In this document: positions 22,457-36,049 of the stretch, in pieces
Numbering within the stretch: position 1 is the first letter of the stretch
How the letters are laid out: the number at the start of each line of letters is the position of its first letter
Source of the DNA: Gammaproteobacteria bacterium
GTDB taxonomy: Bacteria; Pseudomonadota; Gammaproteobacteria; 21-64-14
Reading direction: 5' to 3'
DNA length: 64,000 nucleotides
Assembly (NCBI GenBank): GCA_027013145.1
Contig: JALUXX010000003.1
Span: forward strand, 1 to 64,000
Notes under the pieces: generated by a model
Database searches by the model: none
The model's input: the letters and a program-made list of their open reading frames with translations, nothing else
What the model was told of the DNA's origin: nothing
Made by a program: the position numbers and the translations under genes

Positions 22457-23326
22457 ATGTTGGCGCGGCAGAAGGCAAGGCGGTTCCCGCTCGCGGTACG
22501 CGGTCCGGCGTATCCGGCCGGTGTGAACCCGCACGACGGGGACGGTATCCGGATCGTGCAGGTCACGGACATGCATCTGTACCGCGATGCCGGCCGCACG
22601 CTGCTCGGGGTCGACACGCAACGGTCCTTCGAAGAGGTCCTGGACCGCGCGGTACGTGAGCGCGGGCGACCCGACCTCGTGCTCGCGACCGGGGACCTGG
22701 TGCACGACCGTTCGCGCGCGGGCTACACACGCCTGCGCGGAGTGCTCGCCGGGCTCGGCGTCCCGTTTCTGTGGCTGCCCGGAAACCACGACGATCCGGA
22801 GTGCATGCGCGCGGTGCTCGCCGACGCCGGCGCGAGCGACCCGCGCAGCGTGCGCGTCGGCGACTGGCAGATCGTCCTGCTCGACTCGACGGTCGAGGGC
22901 AGCGACGCCGGGCGCATCGCCGCCGCCGGTCTGCGGGACCTGGACGAGGACCTCGCGCGTTTCCCGGAGCACCACGCCCTGGTCTGTCTGCACCACCCGC
23001 CGGTGCCCATCGGCAGCCGCTGGATGGATGCGATCGGGCTGCAGAACCCCGCCGAGCTGTTCGCGGTGCTCGATCGCCACCCGCAGGTCCGGGCGGTCGT
23101 GTGCGGGCATATCCACCAGGCGTTCGACACCCACCGCGGCGCCGTTCGGATCCTCGGAAGCCCCTCGACCTGTTTCCAATTCAAACCGCGCAGCGAGGAG
23201 TTCGCCGTGGACCGCGCCGCGCCGGGGTACCGCTGGCTCACGCTCGGCGCCGACGGCGCACTCGAGACCGGGGTCGGTCGGATCGAGGACTACTCCGCGG
23301 TGGATATCGCGTCGACCGGCTACTGA
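22457..23326 (+). CDS. cpdA: 3',5'-cyclic-AMP phosphodiesterase CpdA
   Basis: CpdA is a class III calcineurin-like phosphodiesterase that hydrolyses cAMP to AMP. The 289-residue protein has every metal-binding motif in order: DxH in VTDMHLYRD, GDLVHD, GNHDD, HHPP and GHIH followed by QAF. The end reads PGYRWLTLGADG, as in CpdA. An ATG start at 22457 gives ~30 residues before the domain; a GTG at 22523 is an alternative. Two genes downstream lies a protein with two cyclic-nucleotide-binding domains, so the locus may be concerned with cAMP signalling, though that link is inferred from proximity only. Confidence 0.88.
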   Translation: MLARQKARRFPLAVRGPAYPAGVNPHDGDGIRIVQVTDMHLYRDAGRTLLGVDTQRSFEEVLDRAVRERGRPDLVLATGDLVHDRSRAGYTRLRGVLAGLGVPFLWLPGNHDDPECMRAVLADAGASDPRSVRVGDWQIVLLDSTVEGSDAGRIAAAGLRDLDEDLARFPEHHALVCLHHPPVPIGSRWMDAIGLQNPAELFAVLDRHPQVRAVVCGHIHQAFDTHRGAVRILGSPSTCFQFKPRSEEFAVDRAAPGYRWLTLGADGALETGVGRIEDYSAVDIASTGY

Positions 23327-23784
23327 CCCGTCGGTCCGGCGGCGGCGAGGCGCGCGGCCATCTCCCGGATACGGCGGCCTTCCGGAGTCTCCCCCTTTCC
23401 GGCCGCGGTGACGGCGGCGGCGTATTCGGCGAGCAGTGCCGGGAGCGCCTGCAGGATACGGTTCCGGCGCAGGCGCCCGGCGCCGTGCACGGTCCACGCC
23501 GCGCGCCAACGGCAACGCGGTGTCGCGTCGCACACCCTGAGTCCCCATTCGGGGTGGTTCGGCCGCCACTCGTGGCGGCGGATCACCAGCCGATAGGCCT
23601 CGGGTGCGCCGTCGAGGCCGACCGGGGGGCCGTAACATTCGACTTCCAGACGCGGCGCCAGCGCGTCCAGCTCGGTGCCGAGCCGCTCCAGGGCCGCGGT
23701 TGCCGCGGCCGCGGCCGCCGGCCCCCGGGGCGGGGTGACGCTCATGCGTGCCAGCAGCTCGAGGTAGGCGTCGTCCGAATCCAT
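23320..23784 (-). CDS. Hypothetical protein
   Basis: I do not recognise this 154-residue protein. It has an Ala-rich helical N-terminus, a central stretch with EVECYGPPVGLDGAPEAYRL and WRPNHPEWGLRVCDATPRCRW that looks like a folded domain, and a helical C-terminus (ILQALPALLAEYAAAVTAA). There is no signal peptide or membrane helix; two Cys lie in the central block. Its 3' end overlaps cpdA by 7 bp on the opposite strand. ATG 23784 is the first start; an ATG 42 bases downstream (MSVTPP) is possible. Codon use and GC-rich third positions look like real coding sequence. Confidence 0.6.
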   Translation of the reverse strand: MDSDDAYLELLARMSVTPPRGPAAAAAATAALERLGTELDALAPRLEVECYGPPVGLDGAPEAYRLVIRRHEWRPNHPEWGLRVCDATPRCRWRAAWTVHGAGRLRRNRILQALPALLAEYAAAVTAAGKGETPEGRRIREMAARLAAAGPTGQ

Positions 23785-23932: not shown

Positions 23933-24781
23933 ATGGGAGCGGCAAAGAAACTCGTTGACGCGGCACGTCTGCGCGGCTTGGTCCCGCTTCATTCGCTCAC
24001 GCCGGATCACCTGCAGGAACTCGCCCGGAAGTCCCCCATCGAGGATCTGCCGGCGGGCGCGGAGGTGTTCGCGACGGGCGATCGCGACGGCAAGGCGGTC
24101 TATCTGCTCTCCGGCGAGGTCGAGCTGAGCGCGCCGGGGGAGGGGGTCCAGCGGCTGCGCGCGGGCACCGAACCGACGCGCTACCCGCTGGCGCATCATC
24201 AGCCCAGGCGCCTGACGGCGCGCGCCCTTGGGCCGGTCTCCGTGCTGCGCATCGACGCCAACCTGCTCGACATGATGCTCGAGTGGCGGCGCACCGATTC
24301 CTACGAGGTCGCCGAGCTGGGCGCAGCGGACGATGCGGGCGAGGAGGACTGGCTGGTCCGGTTCCTGGGCTCCGGCGGTTTCGACCGCATCCCTGCGGGC
24401 GATCTGCAGGCGTTGCTGGCGCGGCTCGAGGAGATCGAGGTGCCCCCCGGCGCCGCCGTGATGAACGCGGGCGACCCCCCCGACGGTTATTACATCGTCA
24501 AGCGCGGGCGCTGCGAGGTCCTGCGGTGTCCCGCCGCCGGCGAGCCGCCGCGGGTCGTCGCCGAACTCGGGCCGGGCGAGACCTTCGGCGAAGAGGCCCT
24601 GATCACCGGGGCGCCGCGCAACGCCACGGTGGTCATGCCCGAGGGCGGCGCGGTGCTGCGCCTGCCGCGCGCGGACTACCGGGCGCTGGTCGCCGATGCC
24701 CTGCTGCAACCGGTGGGTTATGAGCGCGCGCGCACTGCTGCTGCAGGGCGCCGTGCTCCTCGACGTGCGCGGTCCGGATGA
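23933..24781 (+). CDS. Protein with two cyclic-nucleotide-binding domains
   Basis: This is a 282-residue cytosolic protein. The first cNMP-like domain (~10-130) contains LVPLHSLTPDHLQELARKS and VYLLSGEVELSAPGEG and appears degenerate. The second (~140-265) is canonical: FDRIPAGDLQALLARLEEI, GDPPDGYYIVKRGRCEVLR and the phosphate-binding cassette-like FGEEALITGAPRNATV. The last ~16 codons overlap the rhodanese gene in another frame and read as Arg/Ala-rich noise. Family members I know continue directly into a rhodanese domain, which is exactly what the overlapping frame encodes. This may therefore be the N-terminal half of a fused gene broken by a 1-base shift near 24725-24735. It may respond to cAMP; cpdA is close by. 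Confidence 0.85.
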   Translation: MGAAKKLVDAARLRGLVPLHSLTPDHLQELARKSPIEDLPAGAEVFATGDRDGKAVYLLSGEVELSAPGEGVQRLRAGTEPTRYPLAHHQPRRLTARALGPVSVLRIDANLLDMMLEWRRTDSYEVAELGAADDAGEEDWLVRFLGSGGFDRIPAGDLQALLARLEEIEVPPGAAVMNAGDPPDGYYIVKRGRCEVLRCPAAGEPPRVVAELGPGETFGEEALITGAPRNATVVMPEGGAVLRLPRADYRALVADALLQPVGYERARTAAAGRRAPRRARSG

Positions 24782-27700
24782 GCATGCCGCCGACGGGCTC
24801 GAGGGCAGCGTCAACCTGCCCCTGGCCCAGGTGCGCGAGCGCGCCGGCGAGCTGGATCCGGCGCGGCGCTATGTCGTGTATTGCGACAACGGGATTCGCG
24901 GCTCCGCCGCTGCATTGCTCCTGGCGCATCGCGGTTTCGAGGCCTATCCGCTGGAGGGCGGCCTCGAGGCCGTGCCCGCGCATGTCCGCGGCGGTTCGGC
25001 TCCGGCGCAGGTGCGCGCGGCGGACGGTGGCGCGGAATCGGTGCACGAGGCGCGCGCCGAGGTCGCGCGCGAGGCGGCGCGCATGCGCGGGGACGCCGAG
25101 GCCGCGGAGCGCGCCGCCCGCAACGCCGCCCGCGAGGCCGCTGCGGCCCGCGAGCGTGCCCGGCGCGACGCGGACGAGCGCGCGGCGCGCGCCGAAGAGG
25201 CGCGACTGCGGGCGGAGGAGGACGCCGAGCGGCTGCGTGCCGCCCGCGAACGGGCGGAGCGTGAGGCGGCCGCCGAGGCCGAGCGTGTCCGGCGCGATCT
25301 CGAGAGCGCGCGGCGTAAGGCGGGCGCGGAGGCGGCACAACTCAAGTCGGAAGTGACCGAGGCGCGCAACCACGCGCGCGAGCAGGCGCAGCGCGCGGCC
25401 GAGGCCGAGCGCCAGCGCGCCGAGGCCGAACGCCTGGCCGCGCAGATTCGGGACGAGGCCCGGGCGGCGCGCGAGGAGGCGCAGTCCCTTGCGGCGCGCC
25501 TCGAGGAGCACGCGCGGGTCTCGCAGGCGGCGGCCGCAGAGCAGGAGCGGGTCCTGCACGAGCGGCTCGAGACCGAACGCCGCGACGCGGAGGCGCGCGC
25601 GGCGCGGCTGCAGGCGGAGAGCGAGGCCGCGCGCCGCGCACTGGACGAGGAGGCGCAACGGGCCGCGGCGGCCGAGGCCGCGCATCGCGAGGCGCAGGCG
25701 GAACTGGCGCGCATCCGGGAGGAGACCCGCAGCGCCCATACCCAGGCCAAGCAGGAACTCGCCCGCCTCGAGCAGACCCGGCGCGAGGTCGAGGCCGAGG
25801 GGCGCCGGGAGGTCGAGCGCCTGCGCGCGGAGGCCGAACGCCGACGGCAGGACACCGAGGCCGAGATCGCCCGCCTGCGCCAAGAGGCGGAGGCGGCGCG
25901 GCGGCGGGCGGAGGAGGAGGCCGCGCGCGTCGACGCTGCGGAGGCGGCGCGGCGAGCGGCCGAGGAGGAGGTGGCGCGGGTCAAGGCGGAGGCCGAGGCC
26001 ATGCGCCGGCGTTCCGAGGAGGAGGCGCAACGCCTGCGCTCGGAGCTGAGCGCGCTCGAGCAGCGTGCGCGCGAGCAGACGGAACGCTCCTCGCAGGCGG
26101 CGATGGCGCGGCATCGCGCCGAACAGGAGGCCGAACGGGTACGCGAGGCGGAGGCGGCGCGGCGCCAGGTGGAGATCGAGGCCGCGCGCAAGCAGGCCGA
26201 GCAGGAGGTGCTGCGGGTGCAGGCGGCCGAGGTGGCGCGGCGCCGGCGCGCGGAGGCGGAGGCGCAGAGACGCGCCGCGGCGGAGAGCGCACGCGAGCGG
26301 GCGGAGGCCGAGGCGCGCCGGGTACGGGAAGAGGCCGAGGCGGCGCGGCGGGCCGCCGAGGCGGAGGGGCGTCGGATGCGCGCGGCGGCGGCCGCGCTCG
26401 AGCGCCGCCTCGAGGCAGACGCCGCGCGTGCGCGCGAGGAGGAAGAGGCGGCGCGGATCCGGGCCGCCTATCGGGCGCTGGACGCGGAGGCATCGGAAAA
26501 GGCTCCGGCGGCCCCGGAAGGCCCCCCGGACGACACGCCGCCGACCGCTCCGCAGACGGCGACACCGACTCCGGCCCGGGCGGCCGAACCCGCGCTCCGC
26601 GCGCGCACGCGGTTGCCCGACCCCGAACCGCCACCGCCGCTGGATTTCGCCCTTCCCTGGCTCCAGGACCTGGAAACGGGGGAGGAGGCGGCGGCAGGGA
26701 CGGCGGGCGGCGAGGGATCGGCACCTGAGGAGGCCCCCGAGGCGGTAGAGGACTTCGAGATACTCCCGGCGATCCCGGAGATCGCGCATCCGGCGGCTGC
26801 GGACGATGCCGCGCTCCCGTCGGCGACGGCCGCTGCGGCCCCACCCCCGAAGGCGTCGCAGCCTTCCGCGCCCGGTCGCCCGCCCGCGGCGGATGCCACG
26901 CCCACGACCGTCGCCGCCTCGTCCGCTTCCCCGGCGCGGTCTCCCGGCGGGGGGGCGGGCGGATCCCCCAGCGCATTCCCGGGCGGATTCCCGGCCGGAT
27001 CCCCGGGCGGATCCCCGGCCGGATCCCGGGCGGGCGCGCGAGCGGAAATCCCGGCGCCGCGCGCTTCACGGGTACGCTCGGGTCGCGTCGGCTTCGCGCT
27101 CGTCGCCGGGGTCGTGTTCGCGGTCGGGGTGGCCTTTGCGCTGTATTCGCTGGCGCCGCGCCCGCGCGGGACGGGTGCTGCGCCCGCCGCGCCGCAGACG
27201 GCTCCCGCGTCGGTGCCGGCGTCCGCCCCGACCCCCACCCCCGCGCCGACGTCCGTGCCCACCCCGGTCCCGTCGGCCGCCGCGCCGCCGGAGCCGCCGG
27301 AAAAGGCGGCACCGGCGCGGCCGGAGCCGGTTGCGCCGCCGGTCCTTCCTTCTGCCCCGGCCTCGCGGCCGGCACCGGTCGTGTCGCCCGCTGCGGCCAC
27401 GGGGGGCCGCGAGACGCCGCCCGCTCCCGAGGTCGCGCCGAAGCCGGGACCGGAATCGCCGTTCAGGCCCGAATCGCGTGGGGCGGCGTCCCCCGCGGCG
27501 GGTCCGTCCCGGGAGAAGGCCCCGTCCCCGGAGAAGGTCCCGCCGGTGACCTCGACCCCCGCGCGGTCGCAGCCGGCGGTGCGCGCCGCCCCCCCGGCGC
27601 CGTCGCGGGAGAACCTGGTGCCGGGTGAAGCGCCGCCCGGTGCAGGGCCCGTTCCGGCCCGTGGCACGGGCCCGGGGGCCGCCGCGCGCGTGCGGGCCGA

Positions 27701-28289
27701 ACGGCGTGCACTCGAGGCCGCGCAGCGACGGTTGCAGCAACGTCTCGGGGCGCAGGGGGCGAAGGGTGCGGCGGCCGCTTCCGCGCCGAAGGCGGTGTCG
27801 GGGGCGCGACCCGTACCACCGGCGTCGGCGCCCGCAGCCGAACCTTCGGGCAATTCCGGGACCGCGCCGACCGGGACCGCGCCGACCGGGACCACGTCGA
27901 CCGGGACCACGTCGACCGGGACCGGGCCGACGCCCAGCGCGCCGAACCGCACGGCCGGGGTGAGGGGGATGCCGGGGACGAGCGCGGCGAAGGCGTCGCC
28001 GCCGCGCCCCGGGGCCACGCCCGCCGCGCCGGCCGGCGCGGTCACGCCGCCGCCGGTCCCCGGCGCGCCCGGAAAGGCGTCACCGGCCGGCAAGGGCGCC
28101 GCCACCCCGGTGCCCGCAGCGACCCCGGCGCCCGCAGCGACCCCGGTGCCCGCAACGGCGCCGGCGCCCGCGCCGCCCGCGGCGGTCAAGGCGCCGGGGG
28201 CGGTCGAGGGAGGGGGCGCCCCGGGGGTGACCTCCGCCGCGCCGTCGGCCGCGGGCAGCGGGACGCCGCCGGCACCGGCCGCGCCCTGA
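24720..28289 (+). CDS. Rhodanese domain, very long coiled coil, transmembrane helix, Pro/Ala-rich tail
   Basis: This is a 1,189-residue protein read from ATG 24720. A rhodanese domain occupies ~1-95, with LLDVRGPDEHAADG and the active-site loop YCDNGIRGSAAALLLAHRGF (Cys ~55, C-x4-R). From ~107 to ~590 is an uninterrupted Arg/Ala/Glu-rich heptad-like coiled coil resembling TolA or kinesin-like low-complexity coils. A Pro/Ala linker, one membrane helix VGFALVAGVVFAVGVAFALY (~790-813) and a ~375-residue Pro/Ala/Thr tail follow, with tandem repeats. The rhodanese and coil would be cytoplasmic and the tail probably periplasmic (inferred). The function is unknown; a tension-bearing or scaffold role is a guess. 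It overlaps the cNMP gene and may be its continuation after a frameshift. Confidence 0.75.
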   Translation: MSARALLLQGAVLLDVRGPDEHAADGLEGSVNLPLAQVRERAGELDPARRYVVYCDNGIRGSAAALLLAHRGFEAYPLEGGLEAVPAHVRGGSAPAQVRAADGGAESVHEARAEVAREAARMRGDAEAAERAARNAAREAAAARERARRDADERAARAEEARLRAEEDAERLRAARERAEREAAAEAERVRRDLESARRKAGAEAAQLKSEVTEARNHAREQAQRAAEAERQRAEAERLAAQIRDEARAAREEAQSLAARLEEHARVSQAAAAEQERVLHERLETERRDAEARAARLQAESEAARRALDEEAQRAAAAEAAHREAQAELARIREETRSAHTQAKQELARLEQTRREVEAEGRREVERLRAEAERRRQDTEAEIARLRQEAEAARRRAEEEAARVDAAEAARRAAEEEVARVKAEAEAMRRRSEEEAQRLRSELSALEQRAREQTERSSQAAMARHRAEQEAERVREAEAARRQVEIEAARKQAEQEVLRVQAAEVARRRRAEAEAQRRAAAESARERAEAEARRVREEAEAARRAAEAEGRRMRAAAAALERRLEADAARAREEEEAARIRAAYRALDAEASEKAPAAPEGPPDDTPPTAPQTATPTPARAAEPALRARTRLPDPEPPPPLDFALPWLQDLETGEEAAAGTAGGEGSAPEEAPEAVEDFEILPAIPEIAHPAAADDAALPSATAAAAPPPKASQPSAPGRPPAADATPTTVAASSASPARSPGGGAGGSPSAFPGGFPAGSPGGSPAGSRAGARAEIPAPRASRVRSGRVGFALVAGVVFAVGVAFALYSLAPRPRGTGAAPAAPQTAPASVPASAPTPTPAPTSVPTPVPSAAAPPEPPEKAAPARPEPVAPPVLPSAPASRPAPVVSPAAATGGRETPPAPEVAPKPGPESPFRPESRGAASPAAGPSREKAPSPEKVPPVTSTPARSQPAVRAAPPAPSRENLVPGEAPPGAGPVPARGTGPGAAARVRAERRALEAAQRRLQQRLGAQGAKGAAAASAPKAVSGARPVPPASAPAAEPSGNSGTAPTGTAPTGTTSTGTTSTGTGPTPSAPNRTAGVRGMPGTSAAKASPPRPGATPAAPAGAVTPPPVPGAPGKASPAGKGAATPVPAATPAPAATPVPATAPAPAPPAAVKAPGAVEGGGAPGVTSAAPSAAGSGTPPAPAAP
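26957..27028 (+). repeat. Six 12-bp tandem repeats in the rhodanese/coiled-coil gene
   Basis: Units of 12 bases of the form CGGGCGGATCCC or CGGCCGGATCCC occupy 26957-27028; units two and three are diverged. In frame they encode Gly/Ala-Gly-Ser/Phe-Pro blocks just before the membrane helix. The repeat length is a multiple of three, so copy-number change keeps the frame. Confidence 0.85.
27856..27930 (+). repeat. Five 15-bp tandem repeats in the Pro/Ala-rich tail
   Basis: Five units begin with CCGGGACC at 27856, 27871, 27886, 27901 and 27916. The first two end CGCGCCGA, the next two end ACGTCGA, and the fifth ends GGGCCGA. They encode TGT-A/S-P/T-type pentapeptides in the periplasm-facing tail. 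Pairs of identical units suggest recent slippage or unequal crossing-over. Confidence 0.88.
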
Positions 28290-28313: not shown

Positions 28314-28832
28314 TCAGTGGGGCGATGCGGTCGCCGGCGGGTGCGGTGCCGCGGCCGGGTGTGCAGGCGCGGCGACGTAGTCGAACATCTCCGCGTGCAG
28401 CGGCCAGCCCGAGCCGTCGGTGACGACCACCGTCCAGCGGCCGGTCTGATCCGGGTCCAGCGTCTTCATCGAGTAGACGCGCCAGCGCGGACCCCCGATC
28501 TTGAAGCGGACCTCGGCCATGATCCTGCCGTGGTACATCCAGCGATGGACGATCGTGCGGCCGGCCATGCCGCGGATCTCGGTGAAGTAGTAGACGTGAT
28601 CGACCGAGTTGGGGAGGGTCACCACGTCGTCGACGGGTTCCCGGTCGCGGATCGCGCGCGTGAACTGCGAGCGCACCACCGGATCCGGGTGAGCGGCCGG
28701 CGTGGCCGGTGCGGCCGGGGGCTGGGGGGAGGCGGCCGGGGGGGTGCGCGCGGACGCGACCGGACCCGCGGCCGCCAGCGCCAGCGCCAGTGCCGGCAGG
28801 ATGCGCTGCAGATGCAGGTGGACGGTGTTCAT
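28314..28832 (-). CDS. Secreted DUF2914 protein
   Basis: This is a 172-residue exported protein. The signal peptide is LQRILPALALALAAAGPVASA, then a Pro/Ala linker, then a DUF2914 domain (~50-155) with VVRSQFTRAIRDREPVDDVV, the strand VYYFTEIRGMAGRTIVHRW, MAEVRFKIGGPRWRVYS and TGRWTVVVTDGSG. A Pro/His/Ala tail ends it. The domain's function is unknown; it is typically periplasmic or appended to membrane proteins. It converges with the rhodanese/coiled-coil gene, 24 bp apart, and precedes ptsP in the reverse direction; no functional link is clear. Confidence 0.82.
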   Translation of the reverse strand: MNTVHLHLQRILPALALALAAAGPVASARTPPAASPQPPAAPATPAAHPDPVVRSQFTRAIRDREPVDDVVTLPNSVDHVYYFTEIRGMAGRTIVHRWMYHGRIMAEVRFKIGGPRWRVYSMKTLDPDQTGRWTVVVTDGSGWPLHAEMFDYVAAPAHPAAAPHPPATASPH

Positions 28833-35131: not shown

Positions 35132-35245
35132 GCCGGGGCGCCCGGCGCGCCGCGCGCCGGCGGCGGGCGCTGTCACGGGGCCGGCAAAGCGGTTATGCTG
35201 GGTCCGGCCCCGGATCGTCCCCGGGACGCCGGATTCCTGAGTGCC

Positions 35246-36049
35246 ATGGGCCGCATCATCGCCATCGCCAACCAGAAGGGCGGGGTCGGGAAGACCACGA
35301 CCTGCGTCAACCTCGCCGCCTCGCTGGCAGCGGCGCGCCGCCGCGTGCTCCTGGTCGACCTCGACCCGCAGGGCAACGCCACCATGGGCTGCGGGGTCGA
35401 CAAGCGCGCGGTCTCCGCGGACGCCTGCGGAGTGCTGCTCGGGGAGGTCGAACCCGCCGCCGCGGTGGTGCGCGTCGAACCCGCGGGCTTCGATCTGCTG
35501 CCGGCGAACGATGACCTCACGGCCGCGGAGGTCCGGCTGATGGACCGGGAGGGGCGCGAGCGGCGCCTGTCCCAGGTGCTCGCGGGCGTGGCCGGGGACT
35601 ACGACTTCGTCTTCGTCGACTGCCCCCCGGCGCTCAACATGCTCACGATCAACGCGCTCACCGCCGCGCGCGGCCTGATCGTACCCATCCAATGCGAGTA
35701 CTATGCACTCGAGGGGCTCTCGTCGCTGATGGACACCGTCGCGCGTATACGCGCGACGGTGAATCCGCAACTGGAACTCGAAGGGCTGCTGCGGACGATG
35801 TACGACGCGCGCAACAATCTCGCCAACGAAGTCTCGGAGCAGCTCAAGCAGCACTTCGGCGAGCGCCTCTACAACACCGTGATCCCGCGCAACGTCCGCC
35901 TCGCGGAGGCCCCGAGTCACGGGTTGCCGGTGCTCCTGTATGATAGGACCTCGCGCGGGGCGCTGGCCTACCTCACGCTCGCCGGCGAGATGCTGCGGCG
36001 CCAGCGCGCCCCGGCGGAGGCGGTGGAGGCGAACGGCGATGGCGGCTAA
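35246..36049 (+). CDS. parA: Chromosome partitioning ATPase ParA (Soj)
   Basis: ParA is a Walker-type ATPase that segregates the replication-origin region with ParB. From ATG 35246 (267 aa) it begins MGRIIAIANQKGGVGKTTTC, with the deviant Walker A KGGVGKTT, then VLLVDLDPQGNATMGCG, DFVFVDCPPALNMLTINAL, and PIQCEYYALEGLSSL. The ParA-only length and chromosomal context identify it as chromosomal Soj rather than MinD or a plasmid ParA. It overlaps parB by 11 bp. Confidence 0.95.
   Translation: MGRIIAIANQKGGVGKTTTCVNLAASLAAARRRVLLVDLDPQGNATMGCGVDKRAVSADACGVLLGEVEPAAAVVRVEPAGFDLLPANDDLTAAEVRLMDREGRERRLSQVLAGVAGDYDFVFVDCPPALNMLTINALTAARGLIVPIQCEYYALEGLSSLMDTVARIRATVNPQLELEGLLRTMYDARNNLANEVSEQLKQHFGERLYNTVIPRNVRLAEAPSHGLPVLLYDRTSRGALAYLTLAGEMLRRQRAPAEAVEANGDGG

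Follow-up and report, generated by a model that had tools for sequence, protein, structure and literature searches.

Membrane-anchored coils behind tandem cyclic-nucleotide-binding and rhodanese domains: a gammaproteobacterial protein family and a member split between two reading frames

The long open reading frame at positions 24720-28289 (+ strand) of the window, i.e., of the whole stretch of 64,000 nucleotides of gammaproteobacterial DNA analysed here, is, judged from its sequence, not a whole gene but the 3′ portion of a larger ancestral one, whose relatives in other genomes run on in one frame from two cyclic-nucleotide-binding domains (cNBDs) into a rhodanese domain. This work documents the protein family to which that gene belongs, the architecture classes and the synteny of the family, a break of frame in the assembly of the window, purifying selection on parts of the protein and a topology read from its flanking charges. 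The best explanation that we can offer for these results, which we hold at a little less than even confidence, is that the protein could be a membrane-tethered signalling scaffold, working by a mechanism that we infer, whose cyclic-nucleotide input was split or lost in the genus of the window.

The frame from 24720 contains 1,189 open codons (1,197 if counted from the ATG at 24696, in the same frame), and the layout read from it in a preliminary description, namely a rhodanese domain joined by a long coil to a single membrane helix and an extracytoplasmic tail, is confirmed in all its parts. Rhodanese is the sole Pfam family found in it (PF00581, E=7.8e-12, residues 17-92, positions 24744-24971), and the alignment of its loop puts the cysteine expected of an active rhodanese at residue 63 (codon 24882-24884). 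The coil (476 residues, 118-593, positions 25047-26474) is made largely of Ala (31%), Arg (23%) and Glu (22%), with four glycines and no proline at all. Its hydrophobic period of 3.56 residues reaches a power of 1.12, where the 99% limit in shuffled sequences is 0.67, and its residues of opposite charge are paired at i,i+3/4 170 times, compared to 106 +/- 8 in the shuffles; periodicity above the shuffle limit and enrichment of charge pairs together suggest a genuine coil with extra salt bridges. Calculated from the number of residues, its length would be about 70 nm, provided that the helix is continuous. An accidental GC-rich frame is ruled out by this helical periodicity and by the dN/dS values given below.

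Between the coil and the membrane lies a conserved, putatively cytoplasmic juxtamembrane segment (RLPDPEPPPPLDFALPWLQDL...FEILPAIPEI, positions 26604-26792), with 71% identity and a dN/dS of 0.19 relative to a genome of the same genus. The single transmembrane helix itself (residues 798-819, positions 27087-27152) is predicted from hydropathy and flanking charge. There are four Lys/Arg within 15 residues on its N side versus two on its C side, and such an excess on the N side is found in 32 of the 38 family members that have a membrane helix (a deficit in one), which places the tail outside the membrane; by flanking charge, therefore, the topology of the protein is N-in/C-out. The extracytoplasmic tail (27153-28286), of about 380 residues, is of low complexity, with 69% Pro, Ala, Thr and Gly and with expansions of tandem repeats of 12, 15 and 18 bp, and includes a short helix-rich segment (AAARVRAERRALEAAQRRLQQRL, positions 27678-27746) where dN/dS relative to the same-genus genome is 0.24. 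A segment analogous to this one, free of Pro and Gly, occurs in all the relatives with coil and membrane helix that were examined. An FGE domain in the tail was considered and ruled out, as Pfam gives no match and a DUF2914 gene comes directly after.

Overlapping this frame by 62 nt, and in a different one, is an upstream open reading frame of 282 residues (23933-24781, +), which appears to be the 5′ part of the ancestral gene: Pfam recognises two stretches of PF00027 in it (E=1.2e-26), and the profile of the family, A1, matches it with E=7.3e-82. The first cNBD (23954-24325, by alignment to A1) is degenerate, with the FGE motif missing from its phosphate-binding cassette, whereas the second (24344-24712, cassette FGEEALITGAPRNATV) has F, G, E, A and L along with the phosphate Arg, all of them conserved from class to class of the family. 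Near 24720, within the linker that joins cNBD2 to rhodanese (24715-24750, +), the reading frame shifts at the longest alternating G/C run of the gene according to a census of such runs (10 nt from 24724). The window, then, has the domain order of the family across two frames instead of one. The preliminary description had suspected cAMP-binding domains in front of the rhodanese domain and had proposed a search for the entire arrangement; cNBD-cNBD-rhodanese-coil-TM was indeed found as one polypeptide in relatives, even if the cNBDs have a frame of their own here. A calcineurin-like phosphoesterase (22457-23326), which we take to be CpdA-like and possibly a cAMP phosphodiesterase, is a conceivable partner: it sits upstream, next to the cNBD gene, both here and in the same-genus genome, but did not stand out as a conserved neighbour in other loci. 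Pfam gives no match for the minus-strand frame at 23320-23784.

The family is a common one. With a profile built from 16 relatives, cNBD-cNBD-rhodanese proteins were matched in 172 of the 369 genomes searched in the class. When 299 genomes were sampled across the phylum, there were 17 matches, of which five, all of short-form length, came from outside the class. The named relatives are listed as Gammaproteobacteria (among them Steroidobacter, Peristeroidobacter, Thiohalomonas, Thiogranum and Woeseiaceae), the scan of named genomes, done with a narrower alignment, having yielded mainly short forms. Relatives in one frame span about 350 to 2,033 residues, and the fetched loci fall into four architectures: short (80), coil without membrane helix (22), coil and membrane helix with an FGE-like domain (28; PF03781, 2e-55 to 1e-63) and coil and membrane helix without it (9), with six further loci, cut by contig ends, left outside these counts. 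The FGE/SUMF-like domain of L032, L035, L036 and others is C-terminal to the membrane helix and has conserved Cys pairs; on inspection, the catalytic cysteines of FGE seem to be missing from it. Some of the soluble coil forms (L098, L101, L114, L106 and L116) occur as adjacent pairs, divergent or tandem, with similar C termini.

Orthologues ending after the rhodanese domain, on which the preliminary description had let its layout stand or fall, do exist without overturning it: these short forms are grouped on one side of a single branch of the tree, and coil and membrane helix are kept in the branch of the window, with the exception of L038 (4711-7806, -), placed there by the tree yet lacking the membrane helix. 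The window gene would belong to the branch with coil and membrane helix and without FGE domain by its architecture (i.e., a coil, one membrane helix and no FGE domain), by its DUF2914 neighbour in tail-to-tail orientation and by the tree, where its core, entered for this use only as the amino acids of both frames joined end to end, groups with that branch with an SH-aLRT of 93; its position in the tree is not firm, because its branch is long and its composition skewed.

What the genus of the window has kept of this protein is seen best by comparison with the same-genus genome, G001. The orthologue there (L031:584-3424, -) joins cNBD1 in frame to the late coil, the membrane helix and the tail. 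Missing from it are cNBD2, the rhodanese domain and some 300 residues of the early coil, although a collapsed assembly at this locus is possible; its tail has 185 residues, about half the length of that of the window (381 in this comparison), and the DUF2914 copy beside it has one in-frame stop. The cNBD1 regions of both genomes are 71% identical with a dN/dS of 0.15, and dN/dS in the late coil is 0.25, whilst the membrane helix (0.94, over 25 codons) and the Pro/Ala-rich tail before the short helix (0.57) are weakly conserved. The low values of the late coil and of the juxtamembrane segment indicate that the rod and the membrane-proximal segment are maintained as protein despite the loss of the head. 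The genus may thus be regarded as a natural dissection, in which the rod was retained and the head was lost or severed.

In this one draft genome (67 contigs, 99.9% complete), the frame break could have come about by a fault of the assembly, by recent mutation or by functional fission. There is a real chance, if well under an even one, that what we describe is a decaying gene or a sequence error, i.e., that the assembly is wrong or the G/C run slipped recently, possibly at the onset of a pseudogene. The break does fall on the longest run of this kind in the gene, its relatives are unbroken and the window sits on a long branch, and the missing domains and the in-frame stop at the G001 locus point the same way. 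Against it speak some 1,190 downstream codons free of stops, the intact signature residues of cNBD2 and of rhodanese, and the dN/dS of 0.15 to 0.25 in cNBD1, the late coil and the juxtamembrane segment. If the break is a mere base-calling error, the scaffold explanation holds with its head intact. It is rather improbable that the break is a functional fission, giving a soluble tandem-cNBD protein and a membrane rhodanese-coil protein that starts at 24720, is translationally coupled to it and re-forms the complex. The break lies in an interdomain linker, the ATG at 24720 stands just ahead of rhodanese with the overlap of 62 nt, and each half has complete domains, judged from the model of a relative; however, we noticed no second member divided in this way in the loci that we examined, the ribosome-binding site looks weak on inspection of the sequence, and the slippage-prone run suffices to account for the position of the break.

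The head would be the part that senses the signal. In cNBD2, every aligned member has F, G and E, and almost every one, the window among them, also has the phosphate Arg, from which binding of a cyclic nucleotide (cAMP or cGMP) by cNBD2 may be inferred. The best matches of the tandem cNBDs, by profile as well as by fold, are the tandem structures of PKG and PKA-R, with which they share the tandem CNB fold; the family differs from these regulatory subunits in its degenerate cNBD1 and in having rhodanese in place of a kinase, and the orientation of the domains is uncertain in the model of the L097 core (pLDDT 88.8, pTM 0.57). The suggestion that a nucleotide signal is linked across the membrane to the cell wall is only partly sustained: the FGE...R signature of cNBD2 is present in every class and the topology is N-in, but the wall end of that link found no support, since no wall-binding domain was matched in the frame at 24720-28289. 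Moreover, as the G001 orthologue lacks cNBD2 and rhodanese and has the coil and the membrane helix, such a link cannot be the entire function in this genus.

The rhodanese domain, which had been called catalytic-looking, merits that description in the window for its loop Cys, as it does in the short forms (80/80), the FGE forms (27/28) and the coil forms (26/27), but catalysis is not general in the branch of the window, where Ser replaces this Cys in four of the eight members that have the domain (L113, L115, L118 and L120). This argues against catalysis as the principal role there. One could still conceive the protein as a cyclic-nucleotide-gated sulphurtransferase, in which rhodanese would carry the persulphide, cNBD2 would gate it, and the coil and membrane helix would position it; the Cys kept by the window and by 107 of the 108 members of the short and FGE types, as well as the Rieske genes beside 15 of the 28 FGE-type members, are in line with this. 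With Ser in half of the members of its own branch that have the domain, and no rhodanese at all in G001, we consider it unlikely.

On the other side of the membrane, a conserved neighbour of the rod gene is the DUF2914 gene (28314-28832, -; PF11141, E=2.8e-17), tail-to-tail with it. Seven of ten members with coil and membrane helix have this pairing (the window, the same-genus genome, L034, L097, L099, L115 and L120), from four families (f1, f36, f65 and f76), whereas none was seen in the fetched loci of the other three architecture classes, and since DUF2914 is present in merely 99 of the 369 genomes, chance adjacency is very unlikely. The protein of the window is 39-46% identical to its counterparts in L034, L097, L099, L115 and L120 and, to judge from its signal-peptide-like N terminus, is probably secreted. 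A function for DUF2914 by fold was sought and dropped (model pLDDT 66.5, with weak matches to RhoGDI/UNC119-like beta-sandwiches).

FHA-cyclase-like genes are near four of the nine members with coil and membrane helix (FHA and cyclase domains were verified in L111), and TerB genes near three of these nine and 13 of the 28 FGE members, 13 of which also have PfkB genes nearby. Elsewhere in the genome of the window there is a single class III cyclase, which carries a HAMP domain. Short forms L173, L164 and L153 adjoin GAF-HD_5 (HD-GYP-like) proteins, and their surroundings include a PP2C and a CHASE2-protein kinase (L173), the latter ruled out as a cyclase, and a LysM-transglycosylase (L164). At 35142-35233 of the window, in overlap with a ParA-type gene (35132-36046), ARAGORN calls a tRNA-Sec that is probably spurious.

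ExbB, ExbD, ExbD and TonB-like genes lie directly upstream of four of the nine relatives with coil and membrane helix, in the same direction (L034, L097, L099 and L111), so that the rod gene closes the operon, and TPR genes precede the Exb/TonB set in L215 and L216. This matches the core layout of the AglRQS-Glt-type systems, whose function in gammaproteobacteria is unknown (PMC3169522), the comparison with the Myxococcus proteins being one of layout. The rod protein may be a regulator or tether of such a proton-driven envelope complex, a reading to which we give a low probability. Adjacency is limited to these four of nine, and the large TPR protein of the core, present in many genomes that carry other architecture classes, had no match in four genomes that carry this branch (G000 and G001 of the window genus, G125 and G035). 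The core operon is not seen in G000 either, where ExbD matches are single and on separate contigs, nor does the rod protein appear among the listed Glt/Agl components (PMC3169522). A TonB/AgmX-like query had no match in the genome of the window, a result that carries no information given the low complexity of the query.

The scaffold explanation brings these observations together as follows. The coil would oligomerise, forming a rod some 70 nm long that is fixed in the inner membrane; its cytoplasmic cNBD2-rhodanese head would bind cAMP or cGMP and protein partners, the ligand altering the choice of the partners held; and the extracytoplasmic helix would touch DUF2914 or other envelope proteins. 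In some relatives, the proton-driven ExbBD/TonB (Agl/Glt-like) complex of the same operon may serve this helix, or the protein may serve the complex. The protein would be no free sulphurtransferase but a PodJ-like scaffold for signalling across the membrane, with a head that is being uncoupled in the genus of the window, where the cNBDs would be severed by the frame break and, in G001, cNBD2 and rhodanese are gone. PodJ of Caulobacter crescentus has long cytoplasmic coils, one membrane anchor and an extracytoplasmic part, and serves as a scaffold for a signalling enzyme (PMC8980812). The comparison is one of layout and presumed role, and the window protein is not counted as a member of the PodJ family: no cNBD or rhodanese is described in PodJ (PMC8980812), and Pfam finds neither its periplasmic TPR nor its peptidoglycan-binding domains in the frame at 24720-28289.

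The earlier statement that no system of this whole design is described agrees with our search of the literature, which gave none for cNBD-cNBD-rhodanese-coil-TM, although prior mention is possible, the reviews of the rhodanese superfamily being incompletely covered. Fusions of CNB domains to a rhodanese homology domain were listed in 2007, in Table 1 of a census of CNB domains, under 'Other_bacterial' (PMC2246266). That entry shares the junction of cNBD and rhodanese with the family and is a passing listing, in which tandem cNBDs, coil, membrane helix, FGE-like domain and DUF2914 go unmentioned.

In conclusion, a family carried by almost half of the genomes sampled from its class has, as the sole mention found of its domain combination, one entry in a table of 2007. 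It is quite possible, if less likely than not, that its long forms are undescribed, widespread trans-envelope signalling rods of gammaproteobacteria, with a cyclic-nucleotide-gated head of cNBD-cNBD-rhodanese, a coil of 70 to more than 150 nm, an anchor in the inner membrane and, at the far end, either an FGE/SUMF-like domain or a helix paired with secreted DUF2914, some of them coupled to a proton motor of the AglRQS/Glt type. These long forms offer a concrete test of cyclic-nucleotide control over an envelope-spanning structure.
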